This document shows positions 24,383 through 51,207 of a stretch of 64,000 nt of DNA, piece after piece. The number at the start of each line of letters is the position of its first letter. Within the stretch, counting starts at the first letter, position 1. This stretch comes from Methanoregula sp. SKADARSKE-2 (GTDB lineage: Archaea > Halobacteriota > Methanomicrobia > Methanomicrobiales > Methanospirillaceae): contig CP121470.1 in the NCBI GenBank assembly GCA_030919125.1, forward strand, positions 868,001 through 932,000. Direction: 5' to 3'. The position numbers were made by a program, and so were the translations under genes. Under the pieces are notes generated by a model. That model saw only the letters and a list, made by a program, of their open reading frames with translations, was not told where the DNA came from and searched no databases.

Positions 24383-24461
24383 TTTTTCTGTGCATCGGCT
24401 CTGACCTTTCCCCCAGACCAGCTTCTCGCGGGGATATCCAGCTCACAATGTGGGCCTGAGC

Positions 24462-25091
24462 ATGATCCGGATTCGGGATCTCCAGAATATCGACCGGATG
24501 GGAGACGTTGAAGTCAGGTGGGTCGATGGGATCGACCTTGAGATCCGGAAAGGTGAGTTCCTCGGTATCATGGGGGCAAGTGGCAGCGGGAAAACTCCGC
24601 TCCCGCGTATGCTGGGTACGCTTACCGGTTACGAGCGGACGATCTTTTCTCTTTACAAACGGGGCAACATCTTCCGGGACTATGCCCCTCTTCCCGATCT
24701 GGCCGTGAATGAAAACGTCTGTCCCTCTGCAATGCTCCGGAAAGACCGGACTCCCTGCTGCGAAATCCTCCGGAAGATCGGCCTATTTGAGCGACGGGCA
24801 CCTCCCCCGGGAACTCTCGGGTGGCAAGCAGCAGCGTCTCTCGATCGCCCGGGCGATCCTGAATAAGCCGGGCCTCCTGTTTGCTGATGAACCCTGTGCG
24901 AATCTGGATACTATAAATTTCCGGATGGTGCCGGATCTTTTCGAGGAGATCAATGAGGAGATGCAGCAGACGTCGTCATTTTCTCCCACGGAGACTTGCA
25001 CAAGGAATACCTCCACCGGAACGTCAGACTGCTGGATAAAAAAGATCATCAGCGATGCCGCGCTGTAATTGCCCTCGTGGTAAAAGATTGA
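24462..25091 (+). pseudogene. LolD/MacB-type ABC transporter ATPase, frameshifted
   Basis: Three reading frames join to one ABC ATPase. Frame 1 (from ATG 24462) has G-A-S-G-S-G-K-T-P-L-P-R-M-L-G, a Walker A in which the usual S-T-L-L has become T-P-L-P. Frame 2 (from about 24795) has the signature [15 protein letters not shown] and Walker B L-L-F-A-D-E-P. Frame 3 (from about 24972) gives [13 protein letters not shown], the H-loop region, ending at 25091. At least two frameshifts, and substitutions in Walker A, make it nonfunctional. No permease partner is present. Confidence 0.82.
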
Positions 25092-25932: not shown

Positions 25933-26902
25933 TGTGATATCCCGAATTGATTTTACACATATAACCATTTCTGCGCATATTTCAGAATCCTCTCCTGGGG
26001 TAGACGGTACCAGAATGCGTTATAAGGCTCATCGAAATCGAGACTCACTCATGTGAGGTTTGATGACATTGTGCCAGTGAAGAATTTTATCGACAGAACC
26101 GAACTTCGCGATCCTTCGTTCGACTTCTCTGAAGAACCGTTCAATTTTGCCGTTCGTTTGAGGGTGTTTTATCCTGGTTGGGATGTGTTTTATGTTGTGA
26201 TGAACAAGGAACTCTCCGAATTTATGATGGGCCTATTCACGGTTCCGAGCTGAAACGAATTGTGTACTGTTGTCAGTGAGGATCTCGCGGGGCGTACCTT
26301 ACATCTGGAATCCCTGATTCAGCACCGTGAGAGTGTTCTCGGTAGTTGGAGAATCGAATACCCCGTAGCAGGTGATGAGGCGGGATGAATCATCCATGAA
26401 TGCGATCAGCCATTTCTTCGATCCTTCAAGTTCGAACTCTTTCCAGTCTCCCTGCCCCATCGACATGGAATGAGTATGTTCATACCGAACATATTTCCGC
26501 TGTTGCCGTTTTTTCATGTTGATCTCCACCAGACCGTGGTTCAACAATACCCGATAGATTCGATTATGCGGGATATGGATCCCGTGTGTTTCCTCAATCT
26601 TCCTCTCCAGATGGATTGGACCAATGTTGTTGGATTGATAGGTTGCGAGGATCAACTCTTCTGCTCGATCATCGATGACTTGGGGCTTTCTTCCAGATTG
26701 CCTGAGTACCGGATATTCCCCCGATTCTCTGAACGGGTTGATGAACTGATACACTCGTTGACGGGTAATCTGGAAATACCGGGCAATCTCAACAACGGGT
26801 TTATCATTGACACATTGCTGAATGATCCTCTGGATATCCCCATTCGATAAGTTGCTCAAATCGGTATTTACATCTGATGTCAAATGATTTCGGGATAGGA
26901 CA
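25933..26902 (-). mobile_element. IS481-family insertion sequence, inactive
   Basis: 970 bp bounded by imperfect terminal inverted repeats that start with TGT (TGTGATATCCCGAATTGATT on the left; TGTCCTATCCCGAAATCATT read inward from the right). A perfect 15-bp direct repeat flanks it, so both boundaries are exact. It landed just upstream of the TATA box of the gene at 26955. Confidence 0.93.
25953..26883 (-). pseudogene. IS481 integrase-type transposase, broken
   Basis: The N-terminal helix-turn-helix region includes V-V-E-I-A-R-Y-F-Q-I-T-R-Q-R-V-Y, followed by an rve-type integrase core (K-K-W-L-I-A-F-M-D-D-S-S-R; then L-T-D-N-S-T-Q-F; then H-P-Q-T-N-G-K-I-E-R-F-F with the final catalytic Glu). 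Two in-frame stops interrupt it (TAA at 26299-26301 and a TAG about 26250). A frameshift near 26045 separates it from the natural C-terminus D-E-P-Y-N-A-F-W-Y-R-L-P, which ends at 25953. It cannot make a full protein. Confidence 0.9.
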
Positions 26903-26917: not shown

Positions 26918-26921
26918 AGAA

Positions 26922-26932
26922 AGATATATATT
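26922..26932 (+). promoter_or_regulatory. TATA box for the 26955 gene
   Basis: AGATATATATT lies about 27 bp before the ATG, so the transcript is leaderless or nearly so. The IS481 insertion ends only five bases upstream (26917), which may have removed upstream control while sparing the core promoter. Confidence 0.6.
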
Positions 26933-26954: not shown

Positions 26955-27431
26955 ATGGCAGAATTACATCTGAAAATCCGGAAGCGTGCTTTCCCGAGCC
27001 AGGGAAGAGTACGGATTAATGTCGGTATCCTTCCCGAACTGGGAATCGCCGATGGCGATACCGTAGATCTGGTAAACGAAAATACGAACAAAGTTGTCAG
27101 TGCTTCAACCATCGCTGATACAATGGTCGGGACCGAAGAGATCCGGGTAAACGAAGATGATCTGGAGGCCCTCGGACTCAAAGACGGTGAAGAGATCTTG
27201 GTAAAGCGGGCAATGTCGCTTAAGGAAAAGGCCGCAAAAGTGGTTGACGATACCCATAAACGCCTTGTGGAAGAGGAAAAAAAGATCGACACATCGATAA
27301 AAAAGACTGCCGGGGATGTAAAGGCAACCGCAGGCAAGACGGCTGACACGATAAAAAAAGAAGCCGGAAAAGCCGGGAAGAAAGCAAAAGATGCTTTCGA
27401 CGCAACCCGGGGGAGAGGAAAGGACCTGTGA
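26955..27431 (+). CDS. Double-psi-barrel (AbrB/VAT-N-like) protein with Lys-rich helical tail
   Basis: 158 residues from ATG 26955. The first 80 residues resemble the barrel at the N-terminus of archaeal Cdc48/VAT and some AbrB-like proteins: G-R-V-R-I-N-V-G-I-L-P-E-L-G-I-A-D-G-D-T-V and a second psi element L-E-A-L-G-L-K-D-G-E-E-I-L-V-K. The rest is a highly charged Ala/Lys/Asp helix with repeated K-(T/A)-(A/K)-G-(K/D) units, resembling LEA-type or histone-like tails. No ATPase domain is present. It is followed after about 60 bp by a set of small coiled-coil genes. Function unknown. Confidence 0.75.
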   Translation: MAELHLKIRKRAFPSQGRVRINVGILPELGIADGDTVDLVNENTNKVVSASTIADTMVGTEEIRVNEDDLEALGLKDGEEILVKRAMSLKEKAAKVVDDTHKRLVEEEKKIDTSIKKTAGDVKATAGKTADTIKKEAGKAGKKAKDAFDATRGRGKDL

Positions 27432-27493
27432 TCCTATGAGATCTCCTGTGGACATACGACCCCGAGTGACTAAGGCTTGCGCGAGGATAGAAC

Positions 27494-27898
27494 ATGGCTG
27501 ACCCGGTGATCCCTGTTGTACCCGGTATATCCGAAAATGCGGTGGTTATCATTATCGCGCTTGCCATTCTTGGGGTCTTTATTCTCTTCCTGATGATCCG
27601 GGAACTGCGCCTTATGAAGACCGGCAGCAGGAAAGAGGAGATTGAGCTTGAACGGGAAAAACTTAAGATTCTCCAGCAGCACGCGACAGCGAGCGGGTAC
27701 CATTTCACCCGGATGTCCCCGGAGCAGATTGCCGGGATCAAGTGTGTTGAAGATAACAATGCAACCTTGGAGACGACCATCTTCTCTAAGGAACGCCTGG
27801 TCGAGACCCGGCTGAAACGACTGGAAAACTATGTCAAAATCGCAAAGCTCGATAACATGATGGGAAAGATCGATCAGGAAGAAAAGAAGGTGAAGTGA
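27494..27898 (+). CDS. Single-pass membrane coiled-coil protein
   Basis: 134 residues. A short N-terminal stretch is followed by one membrane helix (about residues 15-35: A-V-V-I-I-I-A-L-A-I-L-G-V-F-I-L-F). A charged coiled coil E-E-I-E-L-E-R-E-K-L-K-I-L-Q-Q-H follows, and a second helical region at the C-terminus is rich in K/E. The most likely topology puts the coiled coil in the cytoplasm (R-E-L-R after the helix). The stop overlaps the next start (TGATG at 27896-27900). Not a family I recognise. Confidence 0.75.
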   Translation: MADPVIPVVPGISENAVVIIIALAILGVFILFLMIRELRLMKTGSRKEEIELEREKLKILQQHATASGYHFTRMSPEQIAGIKCVEDNNATLETTIFSKERLVETRLKRLENYVKIAKLDNMMGKIDQEEKKVK

Positions 27899-28194
27899 TG
27901 TATCCCGTTGTACACGAAAACCAGGATTATGCGCTCCCGTTTTCCGAATTTCCCCGAAAACTCGGGCAGGCGCTCCCGACATTCGACAAATCCCTGGACG
28001 CCTACTTCGACAAGAATTTAGCTGCGATCATCGAGGAATGGGGGCTTGTCACCGAGAACGACCTCCGGGCACTGGAGAATAGGCTGGAAAAAGCGACGAG
28101 CGAGATCGGGACCCTGTGCGCAGGGAAAACGATGATCGAGAGGCGGATAGAGAATCTGGAACCACTCATAGCATCGCTGGAGAGATCGCTATGA
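27898..28194 (+). CDS. Small coiled-coil protein with E-E-W motif, copy 1
   Basis: 98 residues from ATG 27898 (a GTG one codon earlier is possible). An N-terminal segment of about 30 residues precedes the motif L-D-A-Y-F-D-K-N-L-A-A-I-I-E-E-W-G-L-V-T, followed by a predicted coiled coil (E-N-R-L-E-K-A-T; R-R-I-E-N-L-E-P-L). The same motif occurs in the next two genes. Overlaps both neighbours, so translation is coupled across the locus. Unknown family. Confidence 0.75.
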   Translation: MYPVVHENQDYALPFSEFPRKLGQALPTFDKSLDAYFDKNLAAIIEEWGLVTENDLRALENRLEKATSEIGTLCAGKTMIERRIENLEPLIASLERSL

Positions 28195-28412
28195 TAGGGC
28201 AGGATCGGTACCTGAATGCCTATGTCGACCGGAGGATGAAGTATATCATCGAGGAGTGGGATCTGGCGACCCGGAACGAACTTGACGATTTTACCCGACG
28301 CATGGGCGCGATCGAAGCGGAGAGTCCCCGAATTCAAGCGTTCGAAGGAAAAGCCTCCGATAAGCTGACCGAGCTTGAGAGCCGCGTAAAGAAACTGAAG
28401 GAGATGATGTAG
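28191..28412 (+). CDS. Small coiled-coil protein with E-E-W motif, copy 2
   Basis: 73 residues from ATG 28191, overlapping the stop of the gene before it (ATGA). Nearly the whole protein is the shared module: L-N-A-Y-V-D-R-R-M-K-Y-I-I-E-E-W-D-L-A-T, then N-E-L-D-D-F-T-R-R-M and a heptad-like K/E tail (L-T-E-L-E-S-R-V-K-K-L-K-E). No membrane segment. The next gene starts directly after its stop. Confidence 0.75.
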   Translation: MIGQDRYLNAYVDRRMKYIIEEWDLATRNELDDFTRRMGAIEAESPRIQAFEGKASDKLTELESRVKKLKEMM

Positions 28413-28772
28413 ATGATAGACCTCCTCGAGTTCATTGTCATTCTCGTGGTTCTTGGCGCAATATTTTATGTGATCTATTACTTCCTTCACAGGGCCCAAG
28501 GGAAGATATCACTGACCCGGCCGGTGGAGAGCCGGGTTGATGAGTACCTTGACCGGAGGTTCCAGAGCATTGTTGAGGAGTGGCAGCTTGTAACCCAGAC
28601 CGGGCTCCAGGAGTTCCGGCAGAAGGGGTACAAGGAGCTGGAACAGGATGAGGCCCGGCTGGAGAGCCTTAAGAAATTTGAGTCCTCTGCGCTTGACTCC
28701 CTGCAGACCATGGAGGCCAGGCTTGACGCCGTTGAAAAGGAACTGGCTCAGAAAAGAGCCTCCAAAAAGTAA
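28413..28772 (+). CDS. Membrane-anchored coiled-coil protein with E-E-W motif, copy 3
   Basis: 119 residues. An N-terminal membrane helix (about residues 5-25: L-E-F-I-V-I-L-V-V-L-G-A-I-F-Y-V-I-Y) precedes V-D-E-Y-L-D-R-R-F-Q-S-I-V-E-E-W-Q-L-V-T, then a long coiled coil ending in K-R-A-S-K-K. It combines the anchor type of the 27494 gene with the motif of the two genes before it, so the four proteins probably assemble together at the membrane. That assembly is inference. Confidence 0.75.
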   Translation: MIDLLEFIVILVVLGAIFYVIYYFLHRAQGKISLTRPVESRVDEYLDRRFQSIVEEWQLVTQTGLQEFRQKGYKELEQDEARLESLKKFESSALDSLQTMEARLDAVEKELAQKRASKK

Positions 28773-29028
28773 CCCGGAACCCGATCTCTTCAAAAAGCTG
28801 AAAGGAGAGATCACGGTAATCCGCAAACAGGGCGAACCACCGCTGAAAGACCCCCACAGTTTTGCCCAGTACATCTGTGACCTCTGCAGTTCCCCCAGGC
28901 CAATAACGGGCCAGCGGCAGTGCGTGGTATGCGGGCGATGGGCGTGCAGCGACTGCTGGAAAGACGAGTATTATACCTGCAAATCGTGCGCGGGGATCAT
29001 CAAAATCAATTCGATCCCACCCAAATAA
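28723..29028 (+). CDS. Small zinc-binding protein (four C-x2-C pairs)
   Basis: About 101 residues; the start is uncertain. TTG 28723 has GGAGG at 28712-28716 but overlaps the gene before it by 50 bp. The C-terminal half has four C-x2-C pairs: C-D-L-C, C-V-V-C-G, C-S-D-C-W and C-K-S-C-A, in an arrangement like a treble-clef, B-box or FYVE-type double zinc site. The N-terminal half is charged (D-L-F-K-K-L-K-G-E-I). Same strand and overlapping the coiled-coil set, so probably part of the same unit. Specific role unknown. Confidence 0.65.
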   Translation: MTPLKRNWLRKEPPKSNPEPDLFKKLKGEITVIRKQGEPPLKDPHSFAQYICDLCSSPRPITGQRQCVVCGRWACSDCWKDEYYTCKSCAGIIKINSIPPK

Positions 29029-29153
29029 TTTCGCACCTCTGTTCGAATCCGGTTTGGTCACCCCGTTTTTTTATCTCTTCCGGCAGAGACCGGCATCGGC
29101 TCCTTTTGTCCCCAGCCACCTCCCTTATCTTGCTTCAGAGCAAATAGAATAGG

Positions 29154-31128: not shown

Positions 31129-32790
31129 ATGGTCACCCGTATCAGGCGGTATGCTCAGATTGTTGACGTGCTGGGTAAGTACGGCTTTGGCATCGGGCTG
31201 GAACGCTTATTCCCCGGGAGGGCAAGGTTCCGCCTGCCAACCGGGGGAAAAGCCCCCGAGACATCCACGGTCTATGAGCGGATACGGCTCACGCTTGAAG
31301 AACTTGGCCCGACATTTGTGAAGTTCGGGCAGATTATGAGCACCAGGATGGAACTGCTCCCTCCTGAGATGATCGTGCAGCTCAAAAAACTGCAGGACCA
31401 CGCAAAACCACTGCCTTTCTCCGAAGTGCGGGCGGTCCTTGAAGAGAACTGCCTGAATCTCGAGGACTGGTTCAGTGAGATCGATGAGATACCCGTGGCA
31501 TCCGCATCGATCGCTCAGGTTCATCGGGCGGTTCTCAAGGACGGCACAACGGTTGCCCTCAAGGTGCAGAGGCCCGGCATTCCGGAGATCATCGAGACTG
31601 ATATCGGTGTCCTGCAGTCCATGGCGGAACGGATCGAGATCGTCTTCCCCGAGACCCGGGTTTACAATCCATCCGGCATGGTCCAGGACTTCGCCCAGCA
31701 GATCGTAAAGGAGCTTGATTTCACCCGGGATGCCCGGAACATGGACCGGATGACGCGGAATTTCCGGGAAGTTCCCGGTGTCCGGTTCCCGAAAGTGTAT
31801 TGGCAGTATTCGTCCGCCCATGTGCTTGTAATGGAGTTCATTGAAGGGGTGAGGATCGATGACCGCGAGGCAATGATTGAGGCAGGGCTCGATCCCCATG
31901 CAATCGGGGTCAGGGGTTTCCAGACATATCTCAAGATGATCTTCGAAGATGGTTTCTTCCATGGGGACCCCCATCCGGGGAACCTTCTGGTAACAAAAGA
32001 AGGCGAGATCGTCTTCCTCGACTTCGGGATTGTCGGCATCCTGCGCCCGGAAAAGCGCCAGAATTTCATCAACCTGCTCTTTGCGCTGGTGAACGACGAT
32101 ATTGAGCTCCTCCTCCGGTCGCTTGAGAGCTTCGGTATCGTTATCGCCGAGCAGGACCGCGAATCCCTCCGCGACGATCTCTATATTATGATGCACGATT
32201 TCGGGGGTGGAGAGGAGGAATCCGTCTCACAGTTCAATTTCCAGCTCATGGTAAACGAGCTCACCGATTCGATGCGGAGGCATCAGCTCAAGGTGCCGAT
32301 GAACCTGATGCTCCTGTTAAAAGTATTTGTCATGGTGCTCGATGTCGGCATTGCTCTCGACCCGAAATTCAATTTCGGGAAAGAGACGTCCCCCTACCTG
32401 ATGAAACTCGCAGATTCCCATACGCTCTCCTCGGCCTACGTCAAGCGTGCGTCCATGTCGATGCTCGAAGCGATCGATGCGTTCTTCGACATGCCCCGGA
32501 ACCTGAACCTGATGCTGCGCCGTCTCTCCACCGGGACGTTCAAACTTGAGATCGTCGATACCGACCTCAATAAATTTACGATGGCGCTCGATAAGGCAAG
32601 CGACAAGCTCATGATCGGTCTTGTCGTCGCTTCGCTCGTGGTCGGGTCATCGCTTGTCCTTCTCGCATCACCGCTCAGCATGCCCCGGGAGATATTATGG
32701 ATTGCAATCCTCGGCTACACTGCAGCCGTGCTCTGCGGATTCTACGCGATCTACCACGTGATCTTCCTGAAATTCCGGCTCGAACGATAG
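31129..32790 (+). CDS. UbiB/AarF (ABC1) atypical kinase
   Basis: 553 residues. The KxGQ motif is K-F-G-Q-I-M-S-T-R near residue 64; the Ala-rich loop is P-V-A-S-A-S-I-A-Q-V-H; the ATP lysine is in V-A-L-K-V-Q-R-P-G; the catalytic region is F-H-G-D-P-H-P-G-N-L and F-L-D-F-G-I-V-G. Two C-terminal membrane helices (L-M-I-G-L-V-V-A-S-L-V-V-G and I-L-G-Y-T-A-A-V-L-C-G) anchor it. In bacteria UbiB supports ubiquinone synthesis. Archaeal members probably act in isoprenoid-lipid handling, with no proven substrate. A TATA-like CTTAAGTATC lies about 30 bp upstream. Confidence 0.92.
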   Translation: MVTRIRRYAQIVDVLGKYGFGIGLERLFPGRARFRLPTGGKAPETSTVYERIRLTLEELGPTFVKFGQIMSTRMELLPPEMIVQLKKLQDHAKPLPFSEVRAVLEENCLNLEDWFSEIDEIPVASASIAQVHRAVLKDGTTVALKVQRPGIPEIIETDIGVLQSMAERIEIVFPETRVYNPSGMVQDFAQQIVKELDFTRDARNMDRMTRNFREVPGVRFPKVYWQYSSAHVLVMEFIEGVRIDDREAMIEAGLDPHAIGVRGFQTYLKMIFEDGFFHGDPHPGNLLVTKEGEIVFLDFGIVGILRPEKRQNFINLLFALVNDDIELLLRSLESFGIVIAEQDRESLRDDLYIMMHDFGGGEEESVSQFNFQLMVNELTDSMRRHQLKVPMNLMLLLKVFVMVLDVGIALDPKFNFGKETSPYLMKLADSHTLSSAYVKRASMSMLEAIDAFFDMPRNLNLMLRRLSTGTFKLEIVDTDLNKFTMALDKASDKLMIGLVVASLVVGSSLVLLASPLSMPREILWIAILGYTAAVLCGFYAIYHVIFLKFRLER

Positions 32791-47399: not shown

Positions 47400-48510
47400 T
47401 ACTTTTATTTAAGTACGTACTATAAAGTTTCAATGAAGAAGCGGTATGTCGTTGAATTAACGCAACAAGAAAGGAAATACCTGACAGGAATTGTCAAGCG
47501 TGGGAAAGGCCCGGCGTATCGAATCCGACACGCGTATGTCCTGTTGCATGCAGATAAAAATAACAGTTTTCAATATATGCAAGAAGTATTTCGAAGAAGG
47601 ACTAACTCGCGCAGTCGGGAGAAAAGCCCAGGAATCACCACCCATTCCTCGAAAACTGGATGGAGCAAAAGAAGCCCGGCTTATCACGATAGCATGCAGT
47701 CAACCGCCGGAAGGATATACCAATTGGACCCTTGACCTCCTCGCAGACAAAATGGTTGAGTTAAAAATTGTCGAGACGATTTCAAGAAAAACGATCGGCC
47801 GCGTCTTAAAAAAACGAGTTAAAACCTCACCTGCGGCAATGCTGGGTTATTCCGCCGCAACAAAACGCTGAATTTGTTGCTCACATGGAGGATATCCTGG
47901 AACTCTATCACCGACCTTATGATCCGGAAGTTCCTCTGATTTGTATGGATGAAAAATCGGTCCAGTTACTCGGAGACTCCCGGGATTCGTTGCCAGCGAC
48001 TCCCCGGTATCCCGTTCGATATGATTATGAGTATACACGAAATGGAACTGCCTCAATATTCCTCTTCACTAAAACCCCTGAAAGGAGGGAGGAGAGTTAA
48101 TCCCCGCAAGCACAGAAAAAAAGTGGATTGGGCTCACGAAGTTAGAGAGTTACTCGAGATTGATTACCCAAACGCCAGAAAAATAATTCTTATCTGCGAT
48201 AACCTGAACACCCACACGATTGGAGCATTTTATGAGGCGTTTCCTCCGGAGGAAGCTTCGATTCTTGTCAAACGCCTGGAGATCCATAACACCCCCATAC
48301 ATGGGAGCTGGCTCAACATCGCTGAAATTGAATTAAGTGCGTTATCCCGTCAATGTCTTGATCGAAGATTGATAATCTGGAATTGCTTATCCACGAAACA
48401 AAAAAGTGGGAAACTTCCAGAAACAATAACCAGAAACTGGTCGACTGGCAGTTTACTTCTGAAAGTGCAAGGATTAAACTAAAACGACTCTACCATCAAT
48501 TTTAAGTGTC
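47400..48510 (+). mobile_element. IS630-family element remnant
   Basis: The transposase pseudogene at 47433-48482 and its flanks. The short A/T-rich flanks could contain the ends, but I could not define terminal repeats or a TA duplication with confidence, so the limits are approximate. Confidence 0.5.
47433..48482 (+). pseudogene. IS630-family transposase, several frameshifts
   Basis: Pieces in different frames line up as one transposase: the N-terminal helix-turn-helix part with V-E-L-T-Q-Q-E-R-K-Y-L; the middle P-P-E-G-Y-T-N-W-T-L-D-L-L-A-D-K, typical of IS630; the first catalytic region V-P-L-I-C-M-D-E-K-S; and the last I-L-I-C-D-N-L-N-T-H-T and N-T-P-I-H-G-S-W-L-N-I-A-E-I-E with D and E. 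At least three frame changes (about 47560, 47870 and 48080) separate them. Not active. Confidence 0.85.
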
Positions 48511-49100
48511 TATCTCCACTAGTTAGTATGAAGCGAAACCCGGGGAACAAACAATCCTGTTGTGATAGACATGGTCGCATTGAAAACGGTCAAGAAATTT
48601 TTACCCGGAAGATTGCGGGGGGTGAGCCAAGATACCCGTTTCCGGCCAAAAATATGCGCGAGATGGTAACCAATACTCATGCAGAAAAGATTCCACTGTA
48701 TAGCATGGGTGAAAGATCTCGCTGGGGGTATTTGCCGCAAGTATCCTCCAGGTTGCAGTTGATTTTCGCAATCACCGTCAGAGCAGCAATCTTTCCCTAT
48801 CCGCGCTCTCTGCACATTTCCGAAAACAAGCACCTTTCTGCTACTTTGGACGGGAATGCCAACACTCCGGAAAAAAACCGGGAGATTCCAAAACCCCGCT
48901 TATAGGGGAGCTCAGAAACCATTTCTGCGGTATCTGTTTCTGGTATATTTTTCCTGCGATAGAATTCGTAAATTTCTTTCACGCAATACTGGGGCTAATG
49001 TTTAAATGTTCGGTTGATCAATAAGGTAATCCACAAAATCTGATGACAAACCGACAAAGACTGCCCGCAAAGGTCAGGTGTCGGTTTCGAGAGAAGAATG
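48511..49100. other. Interval upstream of rRNA promoters
   Basis: About 590 bp without a gene I can support. Open frames of roughly 100 codons run on both strands around 48520-48905 but overlap each other and show no family motif. Confidence 0.5.
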
Positions 49101-49109
49101 AAGGCCAGC

Positions 49110-49124
49110 AAGGTATAAATATCC
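49110..49124 (+). promoter_or_regulatory. rRNA promoter P1 (TATA box)
   Basis: AAGGTATAAATATCC. The TATA element GTATAAATA sits about 25 bp before a conserved CCCGTG that is a likely start region. Confidence 0.7.
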
Positions 49125-49241
49125 TTGAAACTTACACTGTAAGCCCGTGAACGCGTGAGAGATTACGACGAAAATTCACAAAAGGTCTCTTGGTGAGGAA
49201 CCAGAATCCGTTCTGGCTCTGAAAGAAAGAATGCGTGTAAC

Positions 49242-49256
49242 AAGGTATAAATATCC
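49242..49256 (+). promoter_or_regulatory. rRNA promoter P2 (TATA box)
   Basis: Second copy of AAGGTATAAATATCC, 132 bp after P1. Confidence 0.7.
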
Positions 49257-49373
49257 TTGAAGCTTACACTATAAGCCCGTGAACGCGTGAGAGATTACGA
49301 CGAAAATTCACAAAAGGTCTCTTGGTGAGGAACCAGAATCCGTTCTGGCTCTGAAAGAAAGAATGCGTGTAAC

Positions 49374-49388
49374 AAGGTATAAATATCC
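49374..49388 (+). promoter_or_regulatory. rRNA promoter P3 (TATA box)
   Basis: Third copy of AAGGTATAAATATCC, 132 bp after P2. Confidence 0.7.
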
Positions 49389-49505
49389 TTGAAGCTTACA
49401 CTATAAGCCCGTGAACGCGTGAGAGATTACGACGAAAATTCACAAAAGGTCTCTTGGTGAGGAACCAGAATCCGTTCTGGCTCTGAAAGAAAGAATGCGT
49501 GTAAC

Positions 49506-49520
49506 AAGGTATAAATATCC
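49506..49520 (+). promoter_or_regulatory. rRNA promoter P4 (TATA box), nearest to 16S
   Basis: Fourth copy of AAGGTATAAATATCC, 132 bp after P3. Downstream sequence diverges from the repeat but keeps CCCGTG and ACGACGAAAA, then runs into the 16S leader. Confidence 0.75.
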
Positions 49521-49647
49521 TTGAAACATATATTATGATCCCGTGTTTAATCAGATAACACGACGAAAACGATTACGAAATCTCACGTATGAAGATTTCT
49601 TTGATGGAGTTCCAACGATAACCGTCTTGAATGGTGTTGGTTCTGAC

Positions 49648-49687
49648 GTTGATACCTGCAATGCGGAAATTTGTTTAATAACCGCTA
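49648..49687 (+). other. 5' arm of 16S processing stem
   Basis: GTTGATACCTGCAAT (49648-49662) and GTTTAATAACCGCTA (49673-49687) are complementary to segments after the 16S gene at 51252-51266 and 51227-51245. The second pairing leaves a short bulge (GAT) on the 3' side, as in archaeal bulge-helix-bulge processing sites. Confidence 0.75.
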
Positions 49688-49740
49688 ATTCCTTGAAACA
49701 GTTCAGATACGTGTGCGTACAGATTGAGTGTACAATTAAA

Positions 49741-51207
<1,467 letters not shown>

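Follow-up and report, generated by a model that had tools for sequence, protein, structure and literature searches.

Six short genes, most of them without a family name, form one indivisible unit in Methanomicrobiales. We found this cassette in a 64,000-nucleotide stretch of the Methanoregula sp. SKADARSKE-2 genome (the window), and it is kept across some 20 genera of the order. It combines a barrel of Cdc48 type with an archaeal zinc finger resembling FYVE and with three fixed, paralogous coils, predicted to lie at the membrane. We tentatively propose that the six genes encode one obligate membrane-surface complex, in which the three E-E-W proteins form a heteromeric core and the Cdc48-N-like module binds clients or partners, a reading to which we give slightly less than an even chance.

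Conservation and organization of the cassette

We read 44 loci: the window, 40 loci retrieved by searching whole genomes, and three taken from genome contigs. The six genes occur in identical order and on the same strand in 43 of them, and the remaining locus is interrupted by a contig end. Gene order, whose conservation the first-pass annotation had named as a check on its reading, is thus kept in every complete locus. The flanking genes vary from genus to genus, and this variability around a fixed core places the boundary of the unit at these six genes. No seventh conserved gene was found in the flanks, where families are shared mainly by close relatives.

Presence of the cassette is all-or-none. 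In a search of 393 genomes from the phylum, gene 5 (E<1e-40) and the zinc family of gene 6 (E<1e-17) had strong matches in one identical set of 31 genomes, which are without exception Methanomicrobiales. The gene 5 family had no match in 21 of 21 genomes without a true zinc gene, and the presence of gene 2 follows the same pattern in the eight genomes checked. Within the order, 70 of 199 genomes (~35%) score above the zinc family cut-off, which shows that the cassette is dispensable. Among the genomes searched, the cassette is restricted to Methanomicrobiales. A wider spread was considered through gene 5 and through gene 6 and rejected in both cases: the weak gene 5 matches elsewhere are to a generic coil, and the weak zinc matches resemble other small zinc proteins, the one examined outside the order lying in an unrelated gene context. 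Between the six proteins, sequence distances show correlations of 0.84-0.91. All six genes are under purifying selection, with dN/dS of about 0-0.24 across ten pairs of relatives.

The window bears out an earlier description of six consecutive same-strand genes with four touching or overlapping junctions: all six ORFs are present (Table 1), and the junctions measure, in order, 62, -1, -4, 0, and -41 nt, four of the five touching or overlapping. The last of these reflects a TTG start of gene 6 at 28732, which falls within the 3' end of gene 5. No plausible ATG start was found for gene 6, and the TTG is supported by the relatives, in which gene 6 begins at about the same place within gene 5; an overlap of similar kind is kept in all relatives read. 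The TATA-like element upstream of gene 1 is a putative promoter, and an A/T-rich TATA-like stretch lies at about -25 to -38 in many relatives. Downstream, the T run is a possible terminator, and roughly half of the relatives also have T runs after the cassette. Together, the TATA-like stretch and the T run make plausible ends for a six-gene unit.

Table 1. Features of the six-gene cassette in the window
Feature	Coordinates	Strand	Description
TATA-like element (aagatatatatt)	26921..26932	+	sequence reading; 23-34 nt upstream of gene 1 start
Gene 1	26955..27431	+	ORF; barrel ~aa 3-86 and Lys/Ala-rich tail aa 88-158
Gene 2	27494..27898	+	ORF; predicted N-terminal transmembrane helix ~aa 15-35 and coiled coil
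Gene 3	27898..28194	+	soluble E-E-W paralogue; motif 28003-28053
Gene 4	28191..28412	+	soluble E-E-W paralogue, shortest; motif 28221-28271
Gene 5	28413..28772	+	membrane-anchored E-E-W paralogue; predicted transmembrane helix ~28419-28487; motif 28545-28595
Gene 6	28732..29028	+	eight-cysteine zinc protein; TTG start; cysteines 28876-28989
T7 run	29066..29072	+	sequence reading; just downstream of gene 6 stop

The novelty of the cassette rests on the lack of a matching named system in the open-licence literature, Pfam, NCBIfam, and PADLOC. The first-pass annotation knew of no named system like it, and within the range of our searches the set has no name in any Pfam, NCBIfam, or PADLOC model. 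Term searches of Methanospirillum, Methanomicrobiales, and dark-matter papers returned no mention of the cassette, and nothing was found in the open-licence papers searched. The Prok-RING families were reportedly named by Burroughs, Iyer and Aravind in 2011, and their account, which falls outside this coverage, may describe part of this neighbourhood.

The cassette proteins

Genes 3, 4, and 5 encode paralogues. The first-pass annotation had suggested as much, and the motif it drew attention to is present in all three, but with a shorter spacer than it had given (x4 instead of x6), reading Y-x-D-(K/R)-x4-I-(I/V)-E-E-W-x-L-x-T. When gene 5 was compared with the whole 1.95 Mb genome at E<=10, it matched only itself, gene 4 (7e-7), and gene 3 (0.003), and profile-profile comparisons of the three families scored 97.7, 98.2, and 98.5% (E values of 1e-12 to 1e-15, each for a single comparison); the motif is therefore not a chance resemblance. 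A tree of the 129 sequences from 43 loci resolves three groups of 43 with zero discordant members and support of 0.92-0.96. Identity is 24-27% among the three paralogues of one genome, compared to 48-55% between orthologues. The three clean clades and this identity gap indicate that the gene had already triplicated before all carriers diverged from their common ancestor, and that each copy has since held its own position. Fixed, distinct subunits would be expected to show such a contrast, with roughly 25% identity inside one genome and roughly 50% for orthologues. Literal E-E-W occurs in 27/43 gene 3, 16/44 gene 4, and 24/44 gene 5 sequences, counts that are slightly low since a few more sequences escaped the pattern used. 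Variants of the form D/S/A/T-E-W are common, and Y-x-D-R plus an aromatic is a better conserved part of the motif than E-E-W itself.

In every relative, hydropathy of transmembrane grade is confined to genes 2 and 5, with one helix each, and by the same measure genes 3, 4, and 6 have none. This agrees with the earlier claim that one of the three E-E-W proteins is membrane-anchored. In gene 2, the maximum 19-residue hydropathy has a median of 2.9 across relatives; positive charges lie C-terminal to the helix, and the coiled coil is probably cytoplasmic. Gene 2 has no consistent Pfam family across relatives. We also considered it as a fourth E-E-W paralogue and rejected this, the hhalign alignment (64%) being limited to the transmembrane segment and generic coil. 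The coiled-coil profile matches of the cassette proteins are weak and partly compositional, and a PDB search with gene 5 returned weak matches only, mostly to coiled-coil proteins, the best of them designed.

The first-pass annotation had also seen a barrel protein in gene 1 and a zinc protein in gene 6, but it overlooked that the barrel is of Cdc48-N type, that the zinc protein belongs to Prok-RING_2 with FYVE-like spacing, and that some relatives of gene 1 carry TrkA-C. AlphaFold models the first 86 residues of gene 1 as a double-psi barrel (pLDDT about 92-96), which Foldseek superposes on p97/Cdc48 N barrels at 1.1-1.5 A (TM <=0.88, single-barrel targets). The CDC48_N profile matches 27 of 30 gene 1 relatives (best 8.7e-9), with the match of the window protein itself under the curated cut-off. 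By this modelling, gene 1 is a stand-alone Cdc48/p97 N-domain-like double-psi barrel. In Cdc48/p97, the N barrel is the module used to grip adaptors and substrates. Gene 1 thus has the N-terminal double-psi barrel fold and sequence in common with Cdc48, p97, and VAT, but whereas Cdc48/p97 also has two AAA ATPase modules and an NC subdomain, gene 1 lacks both and has an amphipathic tail instead. Its 158 residues leave no AAA module, the remainder being the tail, or the tail plus TrkA-C in some relatives. With the second (NC) half missing, partner binding may differ from that of Cdc48. Beyond the order, the only ORFs that the barrel profile reaches are longer ones, and the three that we read all have AAA motifs, as Cdc48 does.

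The gene 1 tail is modelled at pLDDT <50. Its helical hydrophobic moment peaks at 98-100 degrees in six sequences, a signal equalled by 0 of 500 shuffles, and Apolipoprotein and ApoLp-III profiles match 11/30 and 8/30 relatives, respectively, alongside perilipin-type matches. The apolipoprotein matches are weak and partly compositional, and these sequence features suggest, without proving, that the tail binds lipid. Gene 1 of Methanospirillum and of two other genera (loci L041, L046, L050, and L075) ends in a TrkA-C (RCK-C) domain (best E 4.3e-12), which hints at ligand sensing; the window copy has no such domain.

The lipid-type matches of the tail bear on a further reading, in which phasin-like coils and a perilipin-like gene 1 tail would cover either an internal membrane or a storage body. 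Among the weak matches, phasin is the most frequent both for gene 3 (7/26, best 4e-4) and for gene 4 (3/26), with the weak similarity located in the helix-turn-coil region. However, the phasin match of the window's gene 3 falls under the curated cut-off (17.3 bits vs 28.8), two of the cassette's subunits are membrane-anchored, and we found neither a polymer synthase among the window genes scanned nor a conserved gene nearby. We consider such a granule or lipid-surface coat quite unlikely.

Gene 6 is a member of Pfam PF14445, Prok-RING_2 (window E=3e-33, above the curated cut-off), as are 30/30 relatives. The family name is a zinc-domain label only, PF14445 is not named in the open-licence literature searched, and the other five cassette genes have no family of their own. 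The eight cysteines are spaced 2-11-2-4-2-7-2 in 44/44 proteins, an eight-ligand cross-brace pattern with x4 between C4 and C5 as in FYVE, and these loops fit FYVE or PHD fingers instead of the RING consensus. At E<=0.1, FYVE_2 is the next commonest match among relatives (17/30, 2.6e-5 in the best), FYVE itself matches 13/30, and the top fold matches include the FYVE-like domains of melanophilin and CARP2, which are not significant by E-value. The zinc-domain fold of gene 6 is supported less firmly than the barrel fold of gene 1. Gene 6 has the spacing C-x2-C-x11-C-x2-C-x4-C-x2-C in common with FYVE and FYVE_2 domains of the Rab-effector type, but the FYVE PI3P motifs WxxD, R(R/K)HHCR, and RVC are absent from its alignment.

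The very strong Prok-RING_2 match, together with a Cdc48-N-like barrel encoded in the same operon, might suggest a ubiquitin-like ligase module, wherein gene 6 is a membrane RING E3 and modified clients are linked through gene 1 to Cdc48 and the proteasome. We regard this as highly improbable and rejected the ligase reading of gene 6. The RING consensus C-x2-C-x(9-39)-C-x(1-3)-H-x(2-3)-C-x2-C-x(4-48)-C-x2-C matches 0/44 gene 6 proteins, and the last cysteine pair lacks the C-P-x-C-type E2-binding signature, reading C-[KNRS]-[SA]-C in 44/44. The prominence of FYVE_2 among the second matches also argues against it, as does the lack of any E1, E2, JAB, or Ubl gene within the cassette. A search of 12 genomes with UQ_con (E2) gave no match, nor did its controls. 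Because the RING spacing, the E2 signature, and the PI3P motifs are all missing, we find no support for reading gene 6 as a ubiquitin ligase or as a PI3P sensor, and we treat it as a putative protein-docking zinc knuckle. The case is a warning against taking the Pfam name 'RING' here to mean a ubiquitin ligase.

Outside the order, a 64-residue protein on the minus strand of L092 (2618-2812) has the similar zinc pattern C-x2-C...C-x2-C-G-x3-C-x2-C...C-x2-C and adjoins a long ORF with a repetitive proline-rich middle. This suggests that the finger is present elsewhere in archaea in a different context.

A candidate complex at the membrane surface

Two anchors, two soluble partners with the motif and coil of one of these anchors, a zinc knuckle, and a barrel with a membrane-seeking tail are best read as parts of a single complex on the inner side of the membrane, whose assembly, topology, and purpose we infer as follows. 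The operon would be self-contained and encode one complex on the cytoplasmic face. Genes 2 and 5 would anchor it, each by one transmembrane helix near the N terminus, and extend their coiled coils into the cytoplasm. Genes 3, 4, and 5 would pair via the short helix they have in common (Y-x-D-R...E-E-W-x-L) and via the coil that follows, most likely as a heteromer with one copy of each, although the E-E-W proteins could instead form separate homo-oligomers. Gene 6 would contribute its FYVE-like binuclear zinc knuckle as a docking module for proteins, while gene 1 would rest on the membrane by its amphipathic tail and display the Cdc48-N-like barrel. By analogy with Cdc48, the barrel suggests a client- or adaptor-binding site displayed at the membrane. 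The whole would act as a membrane-surface scaffold recruiting clients or Cdc48-type partners, and its likeliest purpose would be envelope or membrane-protein maintenance. The first-pass annotation had also proposed that the paralogues assemble together, perhaps as a membrane-linked scaffold, and our results lend this partial support. If assembled in this way, the cassette proteins would be a membrane-surface complex new to descriptions of methanogens, and a paralogous heteromer simple enough to serve as a study case.

A more specific version, which we think rather unlikely, is an archaeal adaptor machine tethered to the membrane: a heterotrimer of coiled coils serving as anchor, together with the FYVE-like finger, would keep the free-standing Cdc48-N barrel at the membrane, where it would recruit Cdc48 or capture Cdc48 clients. 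If true, methanogens would have a membrane-surface extraction or sorting platform of an origin independent of ubiquitin and ESCRT.

An amphipathic tail and membrane coiled coils also recall PspA/ESCRT-III, with which the cassette would share the broad concept of amphipathic and coiled-coil proteins placed against the inner face of the membrane. The cassette might accordingly be an envelope-stress or membrane-repair system that coats damaged membrane. PspA is above cut-off in just 12/199 genomes of the order, and one study lists it as a Methanosarcinales signature within the methanogens (PMC2686161). Nevertheless, we find this unlikely, as there is no sequence relation to the cassette (PspA_IM30 Pfam matches in 0/6 proteins). 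Nor does PspA co-occur with or avoid the cassette: it is found in 5/70 carriers vs 7/129 non-carriers (Fisher p=0.76), and being no rarer in carriers it gives no sign that one replaces the other. For want of mutual exclusion, we rejected substitution of PspA by the cassette.

Genomic surroundings

Patchy presence and differing flanks would suit a defence or mobile-element cassette moved as a block between genomes, and a transposase-like ORF adjoins the cassette in the window. This ORF (26299-26883, minus strand), apparently shortened, has a helix-turn-helix and the start of an integrase core; it lies 71 nt before the gene 1 start, with the TATA-like element in between. Genera, however, mostly group as clades in the comparison of cassette proteins, and the strong purifying selection also argues against such transfer. 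There was no real PADLOC match (weak coil matches only, E 0.013 and 0.026), no relative among 2.9 million viral contigs, and no nuclease, toxin, or other effector domain. We hold a defence or mobile role to be very unlikely, and cargo of a phage or plasmid was rejected given the lack of viral relatives and PADLOC matches.

A GNAT acetyltransferase gene lies downstream of the cassette. Close to the cassette but outside it, the window encodes an ABC1/AarF-type atypical kinase at 31129-32790 (PF03109, 2.6e-81). An ABC-transporter ATPase at 24450-25068 is divided between two reading frames (24450-24866 and 24709-25068) that each contain part of PF00005, and it looks like a frameshifted gene in decay. 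In the window's genus, the genomes of carriers are larger than those of non-carriers (mean 2.64 vs 2.20 Mb, Mann-Whitney p=0.011), a difference to which the incompleteness of some genomes may contribute in part. Farther along the window, positions 48001-50000 have a G+C content of 44%, compared to about 50-60% across most of the window, and may represent an acquired stretch.
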